Positions 5,862 through 23,630 of a stretch of DNA of 49,783 nucleotides are shown one piece after another. The position numbers and the translations under genes are program-made. The DNA lies in IMG/VR virus record IMGVR_UViG_3300048834_000291, positions 1 through 49,783 of that record; one strand, written 5' to 3'. The stretch's first letter is position 1. Each line of letters begins with the position of its first letter. A model generated the notes under the pieces. That model was given only the letters and a program-made list of their open reading frames with translations, did no database searches and was not told where the DNA came from. The stretch is from a virus.

Positions 5862-6280
5862 TGGACCTGATGCCCGAGGCGCAGTTGATGCGGGCGTTGA
5901 TTTTGGACTACGTCGACAACTACGACGCCGTCAAGGAGGCGTTGCTGGAATGGCACGCCCGCATGCAGCAGGGGCAGAAGGCCCCGATGCCTGCCCGGTT
6001 GCCGGATTTGTTCGACGTCCAGAAGTTGATTGACGGCGTCGGCAAGCTCATCTCGCGGGCGCATGCTATCAACCAGACCGGGACCGTGTCGCTGGCCGTG
6101 TTCCGCCGTGCGGTGGAGTTGATGGGCCTGGCCGTGGCCACCTATGTCGAGGACCCCGAGGTCATCAAGAAGATCGAGACCGCCTGGGGCCACATCGCCC
6201 TGGACCCGAAGCAGGCCGCACGCAAGGGGCGCGACGATGACGCCATCGATGCCGAGGTGCTGACGGATGATGCTTCTTAA
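5567..6280 (+). CDS. terS: putative terminase small subunit
   Basis: About 237 residues: a basic, Pro/Lys/Arg-rich N-terminal tail of about 70 residues, then an all-helical domain (RALILDYVDNYDAVKEALLE ... KLIDGVGKLISRAHAINQTG ... VDPEV-like end). It lies directly upstream of and overlaps the large terminase gene, the usual place for the small subunit, which recognises phage DNA and loads the packaging motor. The helical pattern matches small phage proteins commonly found beside TerL genes, but there is no diagnostic motif, so the call rests mainly on position. Its first 294 bp overlap the previous frame. Confidence 0.55.
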   Translation: MAVDGRDGYRPVKRRKTPVAPKPGKRVAPAVVARDARPVAPAKPRVLPKEERSPARSTALVRQPPEIDLRVTTNRYSAIKRHSLRERLNQVSASDTDVMDLMPEAQLMRALILDYVDNYDAVKEALLEWHARMQQGQKAPMPARLPDLFDVQKLIDGVGKLISRAHAINQTGTVSLAVFRRAVELMGLAVATYVEDPEVIKKIETAWGHIALDPKQAARKGRDDDAIDAEVLTDDAS

Positions 6281-7913
6281 GGACATGATGGGCGGGGCGT
6301 TGATGGGACGTCCTGCAGTGCGCGTGGTGCCCCGACCGTCGGCGACCCCGACCCCGGACCCGCCGACGGGCGCGGAGTTCCTGGAGGGCGCCATCAGGAC
6401 GTTGCGCGTCCGTGTCAAACGATGGGCGCCCCCCGCGCATGCCGCCGCCGCCGAACATTCGTTCAGGGCGTTCATTGCACAGTATTTGTCGCATCACTTC
6501 GACAAAGGCTTCTGTGAGATGCACGATGACCTGCTGGACCGCGCCGAAGACCCTGGCGTCGCCAAGCGGGTGGCCCGCATCGCGCCCCGCAAGTTCGGCA
6601 AGACCACGTTGTACGGACTGGCGCTGCCGCTGTGGAAGCTGGCGTACAAGAAGAAATGGTTTGTGTTGATGGTCGGCGAGTCGTTGCCGTCGGCCCAAGC
6701 CAACCTGCAGTCTATCATCGAGGAGTTGGAGCAGAATGAGAAGTTGCGACATGATTTTCCTCATCTGGCTCCCGCTATCGACCGCAAGGGTCAGTTCACA
6801 AAATGGACCGACCACCAGCTGGTCTTCAAGTCCGGTGCCACCATCTTGGCCAAGGGCATGGGGTCCAAGATGCGCGGGGTCAAGTTTAAGAATCACCGCC
6901 CTGATCTCGCGATTCTGGATGACCCCGAGTCCCCCGAAACCGCCGACACGTTCCACAAGCGCCAGAAGCACAAGCGGTGGTTCGGCGGCACGTTCATCGG
7001 CCTTGGCGCTGACAATTGGGACATCTTCGTCATCGGGAATCTTCCACACGAAGACTGTCTGATCGCCACGCTGGTCTCGTCCGAGGAATGGGATGGCTTG
7101 CTGTGGCGGGCCATCAACATGCGGTTGAAGGAAGAACGGTTCCCGTTGGGCAACCGGACGGATGACGGCTCCGCGTTGTGGCCGGATGTCTGGCCGTTGG
7201 ACAAGTTGGCCAAGTTGCGAGCCGACCCCACGGTGGGCGACCTGTCCTTTGCGCGAGAAATGTTGAACTTCGCCCGCAACGCCGAGGACATCGAGTTCCG
7301 CACCGACGAGTTCCAGTACATCGATTGGGACGCCTCGCGGATGAAGGAGTACCGGTTCGTCAAGGCGTACGTCGACCCGGCCGGGGGCGAGCGTCCCGGT
7401 GAGATGCGGCGCGGCAACCGGGACTACTTCTGCATGGTGACGGGCGGCTTGACCAAAGACAACTGGGTGGAGATCTTTGACATCCAGATGCACAAGCTCG
7501 CCCCCGACCGGCAGATGGACACTATCATCGAGGTCGTCAAGTGGACGATGGCGCGGGTGACCGTCGAAGAGAACATGTACAAGAACTTGTACGGCGACGC
7601 GTTGCGGAAGAAGGCGCTCAACCAGAAAGTTGCCGTGCGGGTCGATACGGTGGACAATACCGTCTCGAAGATGACGCGCATCCTGAACTCGCAGCCGGCT
7701 CTGATGGACCCCGTGGTCCGGCATATCCGCTTTGCGCGGCACCTTCGGAAGACCCATCCAGAGTTTTTCGCGCAGTATGACCAGTTCCCGTCCGACCATG
7801 ACGACGGGCCTGACGCGGTCAGCGGGCTGGCTCCCAGACTGTACCGACCGCCAGTTCGGCCGAAGACCCTCGGCACACTCACCAAGAAGTCCTATTGGAA
7901 AGGGGCGGCCTAA
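6267..7913 (+). CDS. terL: terminase large subunit (packaging ATPase/nuclease)
   Basis: A 548-residue motor that pumps DNA into the prohead and cuts the concatemer. The N-terminal ATPase has a Walker A variant PRKFGKTT at residues 107-114 and a Walker B LAILDD at 214-219 followed by the catalytic E221. The C-terminal RNase H-like nuclease shows acidic residues D370 (YVDPAGG), E434/E435 (TVEEN) and the DDGPDA motif at 512-517. Length is normal for the family. The start is the ATG at 6267, 14 bp inside the previous gene. The following portal gene overlaps by one base (TAATG). Confidence 0.95.
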   Translation: MMLLKDMMGGALMGRPAVRVVPRPSATPTPDPPTGAEFLEGAIRTLRVRVKRWAPPAHAAAAEHSFRAFIAQYLSHHFDKGFCEMHDDLLDRAEDPGVAKRVARIAPRKFGKTTLYGLALPLWKLAYKKKWFVLMVGESLPSAQANLQSIIEELEQNEKLRHDFPHLAPAIDRKGQFTKWTDHQLVFKSGATILAKGMGSKMRGVKFKNHRPDLAILDDPESPETADTFHKRQKHKRWFGGTFIGLGADNWDIFVIGNLPHEDCLIATLVSSEEWDGLLWRAINMRLKEERFPLGNRTDDGSALWPDVWPLDKLAKLRADPTVGDLSFAREMLNFARNAEDIEFRTDEFQYIDWDASRMKEYRFVKAYVDPAGGERPGEMRRGNRDYFCMVTGGLTKDNWVEIFDIQMHKLAPDRQMDTIIEVVKWTMARVTVEENMYKNLYGDALRKKALNQKVAVRVDTVDNTVSKMTRILNSQPALMDPVVRHIRFARHLRKTHPEFFAQYDQFPSDHDDGPDAVSGLAPRLYRPPVRPKTLGTLTKKSYWKGAA

Positions 7914-11558: not shown

Positions 11559-12557
11559 ATGAGCGCATTGGTTCCGGTTCGGCGTGGTCAGCCGAGTCTC
11601 GAAGACGTCCACATCTCGGGTACGCTGTCGAACATCGGCGTCGCGTACTTCCAGACGACGCAGGACTTCATCTACCCCAACGTGTTCCCCATCCTGGATG
11701 TGGAACACAAGAAGGACAACTACTGGACGTGGCCGTCCGACGCATGGCTCCGCGACGAAGCGCGGAAGCGTGCGCCGCACACCGAGTCGGCGGGCAGCGG
11801 GTTCGAGCTGTCGACCGACAGCTACAACGCCGACGTTTGGGCGTTCCACAAGGATCTGGACAACCAGACGCTGGCCAACGCGGACGACGGCCTGAACCTC
11901 GAGGAAGCGACGGTCAACTTCGTGTCGTCCCGCCTCGCGCTGCGCCAGGAGCGGCAGTGGGCGGCGGACTTCTTCAAGACCGGTGTCTGGGGCACGGACT
12001 ACGCGGGCGTCGCGTCGGGTCCGACCGGCAACCAGTTCCTCCGCTGGGACGACGTGGCGTCGGACCCGGAAGCCGACCTCGACCTGATCCGCGAGCGGTC
12101 GCTCACGAGCACGGGTCTCGAGAACAACACGCTCGTCATCGGCTACCAGGCCTACCGGAAGCTCCGCCGTCACCCGGACTTCAAGGAGCGCCTGAAGTAC
12201 ACGTCGACCGAGTCGGTCACGCTGCGGATGCTCGAGGAGTTCCTCGAGATCGACCGCATCCTGATCGCCAAGGCCGTCGTCAACACGGCGCCCGAGCGCG
12301 CGACCAAGGCCGTGTCGTTCATCTTCGGCAAGTCGGCCTGGTTCGGGCACGTGGCTGCGAACCCCGGTCGACTGACTCCGTCGGCGGGCTACACGTTCCG
12401 CTGGACCGGCGTGTCCGGTGGCCTCGGCCTCGGCGCGGGCGTGGCGACCATCCCGGTGCCGCTGACCAAGTCGACGCGGTACGAGATGGAGGTCGCGTTC
12501 GACAACAAGGCCGTGGCGCCCGACCTCGGCGTGTTCATCGAGAACATCGTCGGATAA
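11559..12557 (+). CDS. major capsid protein
   Basis: 332 residues with an AGGGAG RBS. Features shared with the phage capsid family of this gene order are the N-terminal IGVAYFQTTQDFIYPNVFPI, WTWPSDAWLRDEARKRAP, the block NTLVIGYQAYRKLRRHPDFK, and a C-terminal strand region ending LGVFIENIVG. No long scaffold-like N-terminal delta domain is present, agreeing with a separate scaffold gene. It would form the icosahedral shell (HK97-fold expected). Confidence 0.85.
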   Translation: MSALVPVRRGQPSLEDVHISGTLSNIGVAYFQTTQDFIYPNVFPILDVEHKKDNYWTWPSDAWLRDEARKRAPHTESAGSGFELSTDSYNADVWAFHKDLDNQTLANADDGLNLEEATVNFVSSRLALRQERQWAADFFKTGVWGTDYAGVASGPTGNQFLRWDDVASDPEADLDLIRERSLTSTGLENNTLVIGYQAYRKLRRHPDFKERLKYTSTESVTLRMLEEFLEIDRILIAKAVVNTAPERATKAVSFIFGKSAWFGHVAANPGRLTPSAGYTFRWTGVSGGLGLGAGVATIPVPLTKSTRYEMEVAFDNKAVAPDLGVFIENIVG

Positions 12558-19576: not shown

Positions 19577-19981
19577 GTGAGTTTCTCGTACGACGCTTCG
19601 CAGCAAACGGCCCTCGACCAAGTGCGCTTCATGATTGGAGACATCTACTCCGAAGATCCGCAAATGCAGGACGAGGAGATCGTGGCGCTGCTGGCGTCGG
19701 TGGGCGGCTCACCGCGTGCCGCGTCGGTCCTGGCCGTGGACGCCTTGATCGCGCGGTACGCCCGGCAGGTCGACAAGTGGGTCGGCGATCTCAAAATCCT
19801 CGCCAGTCAGCGGTACGAACAGTTCGTGAAGTTGAAGACCACGTTGCAGGTGGGCGGCGGTGACCCCGCGATCAGCGGTATCCCCACGGCAGGCGGCGTG
19901 TACGTCATCCAGAACCAGACGGCCCGCAACCGGTCGGATCTGATCCAGGGGGCATTCCGCAAAGGGATGCACGACCACTAA
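19577..19981 (+). CDS. putative head-tail connector protein
   Basis: 134 residues from a GTG with AGGAGG upstream. The helical pattern DQVRFMIGDIYSEDPQMQDE followed by EIVALLASVGGSPRAASVLA and a helix ending in LKTTLQVGG resembles head-tail adaptors (gp6/gp15-type) that bind the portal. Gene order adaptor, stopper, tail completion, terminator fits. One-base overlap with the next gene (TAATG). Confidence 0.65.
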   Translation: MSFSYDASQQTALDQVRFMIGDIYSEDPQMQDEEIVALLASVGGSPRAASVLAVDALIARYARQVDKWVGDLKILASQRYEQFVKLKTTLQVGGGDPAISGIPTAGGVYVIQNQTARNRSDLIQGAFRKGMHDH

Positions 19982-20382
19982 TGGCCTTCGACAACGAATT
20001 CCTGTCGATGATGACCGACACGGTCACGGTCGCGCCGTACACGGGCACGGACGCCTTCTTGCGCAAGACGTTCGGCCCCGTGCAGCGATACCGGGCGCGG
20101 ATTGTCGGCCGGGGCGTGGCGTTGCGGCGGGCGTTGAACGAAGACAGTGCCGTCATCTACGACGTCTATACGGATGGCGTGCCCGTGGACGAGGATCGGC
20201 GCCCGCTAGAGGGCGGGTCCATCGGCATCTTCACGATCCAGGACAAGTTGGTGTTGCCCCCGGACGTCCGGTGGGAAGACCAGGAACCAGAGATTTTCTC
20301 GGTAGGGCGCTATCCCGATGAACAGGGGTTGCACCACTACCTGATTCAGTGCGGCTTCATGTACCATAGACAGTCTGCCTAA
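19981..20382 (+). CDS. putative head-tail stopper/joining protein with recoded 3' end
   Basis: 133 residues, beta-rich (LSMMTDTVTVAPYTGTDAFL, then RARIVGRGVALRRALN and DEDRRPLEGGSIGIFTIQD), matching the small beta-barrel stopper or head-closure proteins. Its last six codons and stop (YHRQSA*) are repeated at 20823-20843 beyond the inserted HNH gene with different codons, so the present end appears to have been supplied with the insertion. The protein sequence is preserved. Confidence 0.65.
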   Translation: MAFDNEFLSMMTDTVTVAPYTGTDAFLRKTFGPVQRYRARIVGRGVALRRALNEDSAVIYDVYTDGVPVDEDRRPLEGGSIGIFTIQDKLVLPPDVRWEDQEPEIFSVGRYPDEQGLHHYLIQCGFMYHRQSA

Positions 20383-20804
20383 GCAACATGACTCCACGAG
20401 CGTCGTACCGCAACGTCGTACACAGCTGCCCTGGTCATGTGAGGGTAGTTGCGAGCAATGGCGGAGACACTCATGGTGCCGTACAGCCGTCGAATTTCAA
20501 GAACTTCATCGAGGGTCAAACGAGTGTTAGGGTGCCGTCCCCTTACAACTCGGTCGGTCATGTTGTCTTGTTGAGTGCCAAGGTACAAGTGGGATGGGCG
20601 CACGCACGCTCGGTTATCGCAAGTGTGAAGAACCGATTTTCCCGGAGGGACCGGTCCGTTATGGAGTTCAAAGGATTTCCGATGTGCGTACAGCACCTCT
20701 CCTTTGTACTTCAATTTGCCGTATCCGTTTCTCGCTCGGCATCCTTTCCACTCCCAGCAAGTGGGGGTTTGGGTAGTTCGGTTGTAAAACCAGTGTGGGT
20801 CCAT
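20379..20804 (-). CDS. HNH homing endonuclease
   Basis: About 141 residues on the strand opposite to its neighbours. It has the HNH pattern of phage homing enzymes: CWEWKGCRARNGYGKLKYKG, AHRKSFELHNG, then VLHTCDNRACVRPSHLYLGT with the zinc/metal residues H, C, C, H. The C-terminal helix-turn-helix (LTLDEVLEIRRLYGTMSVSA) probably binds DNA. Base composition is clearly less GC-rich than neighbouring genes, a sign of transfer. The start at 20804 is chosen because conserved sequence begins there. The TAG stop overlaps the TAA of the stopper gene on the other strand. Such enzymes nick or cut uninvaded alleles to spread. Confidence 0.85.
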   Translation of the reverse strand: MDPHWFYNRTTQTPTCWEWKGCRARNGYGKLKYKGEVLYAHRKSFELHNGPVPPGKSVLHTCDNRACVRPSHLYLGTQQDNMTDRVVRGRHPNTRLTLDEVLEIRRLYGTMSVSAIARNYPHMTRAAVYDVAVRRSWSHVA

Positions 20805-20822
20805 ACCGGTATGGTACCACCG

Positions 20823-20843
20823 TACCACCGTCAGAGCGCATAA
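20823..20843 (+). repeat. remnant of the pre-insertion 3' end of the stopper gene
   Basis: TAC CAC CGT CAG AGC GCA TAA encodes YHRQSA-stop, the same as TAC CAT AGA CAG TCT GCC TAA at 20362-20382, yet differs at four of six sense codons, all synonymous. It is followed after one base by the GTG of the next gene, which is the expected ancestral junction. Confidence 0.75.
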
Positions 20844-20844
20844 C

Positions 20845-21534
20845 GTGGCCTTCAGCGCAGGGACCAAATTCCGGCGACTTCCTCAACCGGATGACGAATG
20901 GACAAAGGGTGGGAATGGCTCCTACCCGATGCTGTTCGACTTTGAGATCGCGGGTCTTCCTGAACTGAAGAAGTACTGGGGCACGTTCACGGGAAACTTT
21001 CGCCGTCGCGCGGGGCACGGCGCCTACTTCGCAGCGGCGCGAATCTTGAAGTTTTCAAATGACATGGTCCCCCATCGGACGGGGAACACGAGGGACTCCG
21101 GAAAGGTCAGCAAAGGCACGCAAGACTTCGGGTCGTCATCCGTCGGAGAGTACACGATCAGTTACGACACGGAGTATGCCTGGAAGATCCACGAGTCCAC
21201 ATGGGTCAAGTTTCGCCAGCCAGGGGAGACACTTCCAGGGTTCAAGGAAATCCCCCCGTCGGATCGAGGCAGGCAGGCAAAATTTCTGGAAAAAGCCGCC
21301 GCGGAAGTCAGCGCCGATTACGTCGACATCGTGGGGGACGAAATTCGAAAGTTTCTGGCCAACCAGCCGACGGTGTCCTCGAGCCCGTCAGGACGCCCGC
21401 CCATGCTCGTAAAGAAGGGCACGTCGTCAGGCGGTGCCACCAGAGCGGTAACCATTCGTCACGAACCGGAACCGCCGTCGGGCAGCAAGGCAGAACAGAT
21501 CGCCGAGATCTTCAAATCGGAGACGGAGGGCTGA
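20845..21534 (+). CDS. HK97 gp10-like tail completion protein
   Basis: 229 residues from a GTG. From residue 29 onward (MLFDFEIAGLPELKKYWGTF) it matches the pattern of HK97 gp10-like proteins: AARILKFSNDMVPHRTGNTR, then YTISYDTEYAWKIHE and a helix with FLEKAAAEVSADYVDIVGD. These proteins join the tail to the connector. The ribosome site falls in the repeated end of the former upstream gene, so it was probably kept when the HNH element entered. An internal ATG at 20929 is an alternative start. Confidence 0.65.
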   Translation: MAFSAGTKFRRLPQPDDEWTKGGNGSYPMLFDFEIAGLPELKKYWGTFTGNFRRRAGHGAYFAAARILKFSNDMVPHRTGNTRDSGKVSKGTQDFGSSSVGEYTISYDTEYAWKIHESTWVKFRQPGETLPGFKEIPPSDRGRQAKFLEKAAAEVSADYVDIVGDEIRKFLANQPTVSSSPSGRPPMLVKKGTSSGGATRAVTIRHEPEPPSGSKAEQIAEIFKSETEG

Positions 21535-21535
21535 C

Positions 21536-21946
21536 GTGGGAATGCTTCAAGAGCTCGGGTCGTTGGTGCAGCTGTGGGGCCACGGGACGATGTCCGGCCC
21601 CATCGCCACCATTCAGCTGGGCCGGTGGACGGGCAAGCCCGCGAACATCGTCGCCCTGATTCCGACCATGGGCCGACGCGCCGAGAAGACTATGGGTGTC
21701 GGAAAGGCCGCGACGGTGTACCATCAACCGCACGTACAAGTCTACGTACGGCGGACGGACCCTGAAGTGGCCGAATCCGTCGCCCTGGACTTGCACGATC
21801 GGTTCGACGGTTTCCAGGGAGAAGTGCTCGGCACCCGGTACTTCTTGATTGAGGCGATTCAGCCGCCCTGGTCCATGGGGGTCACGGAGAACGACGGGCT
21901 CATGCAGTACGCATTCAACCTCCACGTGAGGCGCAAGAATCCATGA
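21536..21946 (+). CDS. putative tail terminator protein
   Basis: 136 residues from a GTG, GGAGGG upstream. The pattern VRRTDPEVAESVALDLHDRF, then TRYFLIEAIQPPWSMGVTEN and a final strand YAFNLHVRR resembles the tail terminator/minor capsid proteins that cap the tail tube and bind the connector. Position before the tube genes fits. Overlaps the next gene by 4 bp. Confidence 0.65.
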   Translation: MGMLQELGSLVQLWGHGTMSGPIATIQLGRWTGKPANIVALIPTMGRRAEKTMGVGKAATVYHQPHVQVYVRRTDPEVAESVALDLHDRFDGFQGEVLGTRYFLIEAIQPPWSMGVTENDGLMQYAFNLHVRRKNP

Positions 21947-22463: not shown

Positions 22464-23189
22464 ATGGCGACCCAGACGCTCCTGGACTGCAAGGTGTTCC
22501 TCGGCGGGTACAACCTGTCTGGGTACCACAACTCCATCGACATGTCGTACAGCGCCGAGATGCTGGATGACACGGTCTTCGGAACGTCTGGTACCCGGTC
22601 GTCCAAGCCCGGTCTCAAGGGGTTCGAGTTCAATGGCTCGATCTTCTGGGACACGGACGTGGACGCCGTCGTCTACAACCGCATCGGCGCCGCGCGTGAG
22701 GTCATGTCGTTCTCACCGGATGGGAACATCATCGGCGACCGAGGCTACTCCGTGCGAGCCGTCAACGGCACGTACAACCCGCTCTCCGGTGAAGTCGGCG
22801 CCCTGATGGCGTCGGAGTTCTCGGGCATGAGCTCCAACACGCCGCTGGTGCGCGGGATTGTCATGCTGGCACCGGGGACCAAGACCGCCACGGGGACCGG
22901 CACGGTGCAGCAGTTGGGCGCCGCGCTGTCCACGCAGCGGGTCTACGCAGCACTGCATGTCACGCAAGCCGGGGGCACGACGCCCTCGATGACCGTGACC
23001 GTCAAGAGTGCCACCGTCGTCGGGTTCGGGTCGCCGACGACGCGCCTGACGTTCGCTCCGGCGACCGCCATCGGCGCCCAGTGGCTGGAATTGGCCGGTC
23101 CGGTGACCGACCAGTACTGGCGGGTCGATTGGACCATTTCCGGTACCTCGCCCGTCTTCAATGCGTTCCTGGTCCTCGGGATCCAGTAA
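22464..23189 (+). CDS. tail tube protein paralogue 1
   Basis: 241 residues. Residues 31-52 (AEMLDDTVFGTSGTRSSKPG then LK) are 21/22 identical to the same positions of the next protein, so they are paralogues. The DDTxxG and TRSSKPGL region is the typical tube-protein loop. The longer C-terminal part contains a second beta domain (VTVKSATVVGFGSPTTRLTF), perhaps projecting outward as an Ig-like decoration. Confidence 0.65.
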   Translation: MATQTLLDCKVFLGGYNLSGYHNSIDMSYSAEMLDDTVFGTSGTRSSKPGLKGFEFNGSIFWDTDVDAVVYNRIGAAREVMSFSPDGNIIGDRGYSVRAVNGTYNPLSGEVGALMASEFSGMSSNTPLVRGIVMLAPGTKTATGTGTVQQLGAALSTQRVYAALHVTQAGGTTPSMTVTVKSATVVGFGSPTTRLTFAPATAIGAQWLELAGPVTDQYWRVDWTISGTSPVFNAFLVLGIQ

Positions 23190-23201: not shown

Positions 23202-23630
23202 ATGCCCACACTCGTCTATACCGACGCATTGCTGACGGTCAACTCGATCGACCTCAGCGACCACGTCAAGTCGCTCACCCTCAACTACGAAGCCGAGATG
23301 CTCGACGACACCGTCATGGGCACGTCGGGGACGCGGTCGTCCAAGCCGGGGCTCAAGAACTGGAGCCTCGAGGTCGAGTTCACGCAGGACTTCGCGGCGG
23401 GGTCGGTCGACGCCACGCTGTTCCCGCTGATCGGCGCCGCGTCGTTCCCGGTGACGGCCAAGGCCGTCAAGGGCTCGGCCACCAGCGCGACCAACCCGAT
23501 GTACTCGGGCAACGCCGTGCTGGAGAACTACTCGCCCATCGCGGGCGAGGTCGGCACCCTGGGCATGACGTCCTGCACGTTCCGTGCGGGCGGCGGCGCC
23601 TCGAACGTGCTGACGCGGGCTGTCGCCTAA
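23202..23630 (+). CDS. tail tube protein paralogue 2
   Basis: 142 residues, with the same N-terminal framework as paralogue 1 (LNYEAEMLDDTVMGTSGTRS) but no extra C-terminal domain. It ends with the tube-like ENYSPIAGEVGTLGMTSCTF. It is the size of a minimal tube monomer, so it may build the shaft while paralogue 1 forms decorated rings or the other way round. Confidence 0.65.
   Translation: MPTLVYTDALLTVNSIDLSDHVKSLTLNYEAEMLDDTVMGTSGTRSSKPGLKNWSLEVEFTQDFAAGSVDATLFPLIGAASFPVTAKAVKGSATSATNPMYSGNAVLENYSPIAGEVGTLGMTSCTFRAGGGASNVLTRAVA

Follow-up and report, generated by a model that had tools for sequence, protein, structure and literature searches.

We analysed a stretch of virus DNA of 49,783 nucleotides (IMG/VR record IMGVR_UViG_3300048834_000291, positions 1 to 49,783; hereafter the window), in which an HNH homing endonuclease gene lies inside the end of a head-tail stopper gene. 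This 49.8 kb virus fragment has a G+C content of ~63%, and its head and tail region is of the usual tailed-phage kind. The genes and features at the locus, with the interpretations developed below, are the following.

19981..20382, + strand, target gene, head-tail stopper, 133 aa, now ending in the codons read as the recoded end of the element
20362..20822, no strand assigned, inserted element, 461 bp: recoded 3' end, HNH gene and ~18 bp; the junction in relatives is without it
20362..20382, + strand, putative recoded replacement end, YHRQSA-stop, with AGA and TCT codons that are rare in this phage
20379..20804, - strand, HNH homing endonuclease gene, 141 aa (PF13392, E 3.6e-14; phrog_1872, E 3.7e-30)
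20814..20829, + strand, two tandem copies of GTACCACC at the right junction, the second running into the displaced end
20823..20843, + strand, putative displaced native stopper end; position and motif match uninvaded relatives, with native-like codons
20845..21534, + strand, next gene, tail completion/Neck1 (HK97 gp10-like; phrog_5, E 3e-9)

The fused end of the stopper gene at 20362-20382 reads TAC CAT AGA CAG TCT GCC TAA on the plus strand, encoding YHRQSA and a stop. A second YHRQSA-stop lies at 20823-20843 on the same strand, spelled TAC CAC CGT CAG AGC GCA TAA; a single C at 20844 separates it from the next gene, which starts with GTG at 20845. An earlier, sequence-only reading of this DNA had described two such ends with four silent codon changes, the second of them one base before the next gene; direct reading verified both coordinates, both sequences and the spacing. 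Compared with each other, the two ends differ at 7 of 21 nucleotides, in four codons, and every change is silent. The two units of the GTACCACC repeat, also read directly, occupy 20814-20821 and 20822-20829. Of the 158,849 stop codons contained in the 2.55 Mb of viral sequence that we fetched, the only ones with YHRQSA in front are these two and their copies in a near-identical contig, which excludes chance as the source of the match. That contig, IMGVR_UViG_3300048930_000409 (76 kb), has one mismatch over 8,687 bp and the identical two-ended structure, so the arrangement is not an assembly error of a single contig.

The HNH gene runs antisense to the stopper gene and is located inside its end, with its TAG stop overlapping the recoded GCC TAA of the stopper. 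Its product has an HNH_3 domain followed by a C-terminal helix-turn-helix-like region, and in the family alignment it keeps every catalytic-motif residue that is invariant in its family. We looked for a sigma-70-like promoter for the HNH gene of the window and found none. An Rfam search for an intron found nothing at the locus that reached gathering thresholds, and local matches did not exceed chance. A 151-codon open frame (20388..20843, + strand) spans the HNH gene in antisense, beginning just past the stop codon of the stopper and closing at the displaced native one. It might preserve translational coupling to the neck gene; its openness is not significant, as 8 of 53 comparable HNH genes have such a frame, a chance of ~15%.

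To see how the stopper gene ends where no HNH gene is present, we turned to relatives. Direct stopper searches returned only the twin contig and no relative in phages, plasmids or genome_contigs, and relatives were reached by a portal alignment scan, which gave seven viral contigs (L100, L102, L104, L105, L106, L109 and L133). All seven lack an HNH gene at the stopper end and lack a doubled stopper end. Their stoppers terminate in WMYHRQGQ or WQYHRQG(Q/S/SG) and join the next gene directly, either with a few bases between or with an overlap (7 of 7). YHRQ is invariant in all eight stoppers, the window included, and on these sequences the insertion falls where the stopper end is most conserved. 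Since the seven relatives end in YHRQ directly before the next gene, the copy at 20823-20843 is best read as the displaced native end. This bears out what the sequence-only reading had expected of HNH-less relatives, namely that their stopper runs straight into the following gene. The codons of 20362-20382 were not found in full in any of the seven; L102 matches TAC CAT AGA only. Relatives reached through the adaptor gene (Caulobacter phage Sansa, Roseobacter phage CRP-6 and L086-L091) share the gene order, but not the C-terminus, and were not used for the end.

Which of the two copies is foreign was judged from composition. AGA makes up 1.2% of the arginine codons of this phage and TCT 4% of its serine codons. 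Over the four varied codons, the 20823 copy is ~35 times more probable than the 20362 copy under the usage of the phage (a product taken by hand). At the DNA level it is codon usage that favours the 20823 copy as native, the closest relative's stopper being 52% identical. The inserted element has a G+C content of 54% compared to ~63% in its surroundings. Codon usage and G+C thus mark the 20362-20382 copy and the HNH gene as probably foreign and the 20823-20843 copy as probably native. All seven nucleotide differences are silent, which indicates that they built up while each copy was still coding, and therefore that the replacement end arrived as a foreign coding end. In 20,000 random placements of seven substitutions, drawn neutrally, the peptide was never left intact, so that decay of the remnant in place is excluded.

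To determine if such duplications occur elsewhere, relatives of the HNH gene were collected and 143 nonredundant genes with flanks were kept. In an anchored-duplication test, both flanks of each gene were compared for peptides duplicated at gene ends, with mismatched flank pairs as the null. Scores of at least 40 were observed at 5 of the 143 loci compared to 0.4 expected; two of the five form one tandem HNH pair and were discounted. Judged by hand, about seven of the 143 loci, including the window and one probable case, appear to carry such a duplication. The clearest mirror image is at a 5' end (L290, 2321-2881). Here the first 11 codons of a P22 gp10-like gene are displaced and form the beginning of the HNH frame (ATG GCG GCC TAT CCG GCG TTC ATC GGT GGC AGT), and the gene restarts right after the HNH stop as ATG GCT GCG TAT CCA GCT TTT ATC GGA GGG TCC. 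The 11 residues are identical, with eight codons silently changed and zero replacements, and the displaced copy fits the codon usage of the gene better than the new copy does. This gene is homologous to the packaged-DNA stabilization gene of Rhodoferax phage P26218. At L042 (2736-3544), a helicase gene has an HNH gene on the opposite strand, and the helicase 3' end is repeated on the far side with 90% identity over 30 residues. At L077, the 3' end of a MazG-like gene reads YKPPVLDDLV-stop in one copy and YKPPTMEDLV-stop in the other, and the displaced copy now forms the C-terminus of the HNH protein; this locus lay one base outside the boundary of the blind test and was found apart from it. 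Duplications were also seen at the 3' end of a nuclease gene (L030, a weaker case) and at the 5' end of an endolysin gene (L058), and L034 is probably another such locus. The gene names given for L042, L077, L030 and L058 were partly read from sequence; L042 and L290 were the two checked against annotated phages. Several candidates were dropped: L075 has two HNH genes in tandem, L248 has apparent repeat domains, and L304, L314, L029 and others are of low complexity. At L262 (2152-3239), LPPGMNIEDQ and LPPGMNIDDQ flank an HNH gene; this arrangement is ambiguous and may be a displaced end or paralogous genes.

The explanation that we consider likely is that a free-standing HNH homing element sits in the last codons of the stopper gene and carries its own synonymous 3' end, so that the native end is displaced and the invaded allele would be immune. 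The duplication, the silent differences, the native junction in the uninvaded relatives and the recurrence at other genes were observed directly. The element would have inserted within the strictly conserved last stopper codons and supplied an in-frame synonymous copy of the interrupted 3' end, probably from a diverged donor homologue, leaving the stopper protein unchanged. The native end would have moved 461 bp downstream, where it is no longer translated with the stopper. The stopper gene would thus survive the insertion because the element brought its own copy of the last codons, much as the sequence-only reading had proposed; relatives, codon usage, silent differences and recurrence elsewhere all speak for that proposal. 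The HNH enzyme is predicted to cut the native end. The insertion would split the cut site and the recoded copy would escape recognition, making the invaded allele immune. When invaded and uninvaded phages infect the same cell, the element could then be copied into the latter, with the gene body upstream of it and the displaced native end acting as the two homology arms. Beyond this locus, a minority class of phage HNH elements may well act as natural home-and-rescue drives. We hold this somewhat more probable than the opposite. Each such element would cut an essential gene and carry the 3' or 5' end of it in synonymously recoded form, use neither intron nor intein, and keep the gene working and itself immune; the class would occur in many unrelated phages and targets.

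Several observations weigh against this interpretation. The duplicated stretch is only seven codons long. No uninvaded phage more than ~52% identical in the stopper was found, and the exact native allele was not seen. The uninvaded L102 also has TAC CAT AGA (YHR), followed by CAA GGA CAG TAG; such codons therefore exist in relatives, and those codons alone may not confer immunity. Finally, the related HNH genes of 12 named phages, most of them T7-like, lie between genes and show no end duplication, which suggests that most elements of this HNH family carry no recoded end and that the recoded end is a minority strategy.

Of the other origins considered, ordinary co-conversion with a faulty right junction deserves the most attention, though we regard it as a less likely course of events. 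In that case, the stopper end of a diverged donor was copied as a flank, the right side was joined illegitimately, and the codon differences reflect donor divergence rather than rescue cargo. Divergence of the copies while coding agrees with this, the rare codons suggest a donor of other composition, and the short GTACCACC repeat lies at the right junction where such joining would have occurred. However, duplication from the insertion point to the gene end recurs at several unrelated genes, at 3' as well as 5' ends, and a working design fits this better than one accident. Co-conversion departs from insertion of an element with a recoded end mainly in origin. It is highly improbable that the gene end was instead duplicated in tandem first, the copies drifted and the HNH gene later landed between them. 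Two in-frame copies do exist, but an untranslated copy should have gained amino-acid changes and has none despite seven nucleotide differences, including TCT vs AGC, and the uninvaded relatives do not have the duplicated end.

We give almost no weight to chance resemblance or an assembly artefact, or to a self-splicing element. The duplication spans few codons, and its score of 33 in the blind anchored test is not rare (~2-3 expected in 143 loci), but the uniqueness of the hexapeptide before a stop, the invariance of YHRQ in the relatives and the second contig all argue against coincidence or misassembly. HNH genes are often located in introns, and this common location is what would lead one to expect a group I intron, an intein or another self-splicing element that restores the gene. 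Against this, the stopper gene has a complete frame and reaches a stop of its own ahead of the HNH gene, the two genes lie on opposite strands, and the Rfam search was negative as described above.

The closest described system known to us is that of fungal mitochondrial endonuclease elements that replace the C-terminus of a target gene. In Allomyces macrogynus atp6 and in Glomus atp6, atp9, cox2 and nad3, the duplicated C-termini are 64-81% identical in DNA and much closer in protein, and the native ends lie beyond the endonuclease open reading frame (ORF) (PMC3630166). These elements and the window are alike in having an endonuclease ORF near the 3' end of the target, a foreign in-frame C-terminus and a native one displaced downstream. 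In contrast, the fungal elements reside in mitochondria, encode LAGLIDADG or GIY-YIG enzymes, mostly bring longer C-termini and are often inserted in phase with the gene, whereas the enzyme here is of the HNH_3 type and is encoded in a tailed-phage genome, antisense to a six-residue end that has its own stop, and 5'-end versions occur in other phages. A second parallel is the ShiLan domain, an HNH insertion in an actinobacteriophage DNA methylase. Its authors note that the first 11 in-frame residues of the insertion are similar to the 11 that follow the insertion site, and that the similarity is higher at the protein than at the DNA level (PMC11855218). We read this similarity as the same signature as the duplication in the window. 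The ShiLan insertion differs in lying mid-gene with the frame kept open, and its authors weighed an intron signature, not a recoded copy of the target (PMC11855218).

Free-standing HNH and mob endonucleases of T4-type phages lie near or in essential genes and home by break repair in mixed infections (PMC2988022). They are intergenic or split genes, as mobE does in Aeh1 nrdA and mobA in T4 gene 60, and the portion of that work drawn on here does not describe a recoded replacement end (PMC2988022). The window shares with free-standing phage HNH elements an intact motif, the lack of an intron and a site that is empty in seven relatives; cutting of uninvaded alleles and preferential inheritance would be predicted. 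The recoded end also recalls the synthetic HomeR home-and-rescue drives, which are aimed at the 3' coding part of an essential gene and bring along a recoded version of that end (22 or 27 aa), which escapes cutting and rescues the gene (PMC7968924). HomeR is an engineered Cas9 split drive in flies, so the likeness is one of logic, not of descent. We found no phage report naming a recoded-end insertion in open-access full texts, and the statement that it has not been reported in phages is provisional.

If the proposed mechanism is true, selfish endonucleases would have a third route into essential coding sequence besides introns and inteins, that is, to replace what they break. The replacement mechanism is known from fungal mitochondria; it would operate here in phages, with another enzyme family and at both gene ends. 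The displaced native end would mark the likely target site of the HNH enzyme, making the specificity of many uncharacterised phage endonucleases testable. It also suggests that nature may already use the recoded-rescue logic of engineered gene drives.

The gene order around the locus is portal (phrog_113), adaptor (phrog_1732), target gene, neck/tail-completion gene (phrog_5), tail terminator (weak), major tail protein (phrog_9522) and tape measure protein. The gene upstream of the stopper is the following.

19577..19981, + strand, head-tail adaptor gene (phrog_1732, E 1e-18), syntenic in relatives at 34-45% identity

The stopper is named by position: it is 33-52% identical to the gene between adaptor and neck gene in the seven relatives, and its profile support is weak (phrog_16085, E 0.0084). 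The large terminase (6267-7913) and the major capsid protein (11559-12557) were assigned by order, the terminase also by tblastn to annotated terminases.

The neck gene of the window is unlike the neck genes of the relatives (z 2.7-6.0). In the interval 20845-21946, the neck gene is unrelated and the terminator weakly related to those of phages with a related stopper (52%) and major tail protein (58%). A mosaic boundary at the HNH gene would fit the exchange boundaries that have been described close to homing genes in other phages (PMC10448857); neck genes differ among the relatives too. Further downstream, related tail-tube-like genes stand in tandem at 22464-23189 and 23202-23630, a pair also present in L102, L104, L105, L109 and L133. 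Among L337-L348, mostly T7-like isolates, the conserved C-terminal Thr-Trp-Arg codons of several intergenic HNH genes have the sequence ACATGGAGG and lie immediately upstream of the next gene's start, and these codons may double as that gene's ribosome-binding site. The record itself opens with a run of ~39 C (positions 1-42), probably a sequencing or assembly end artefact.
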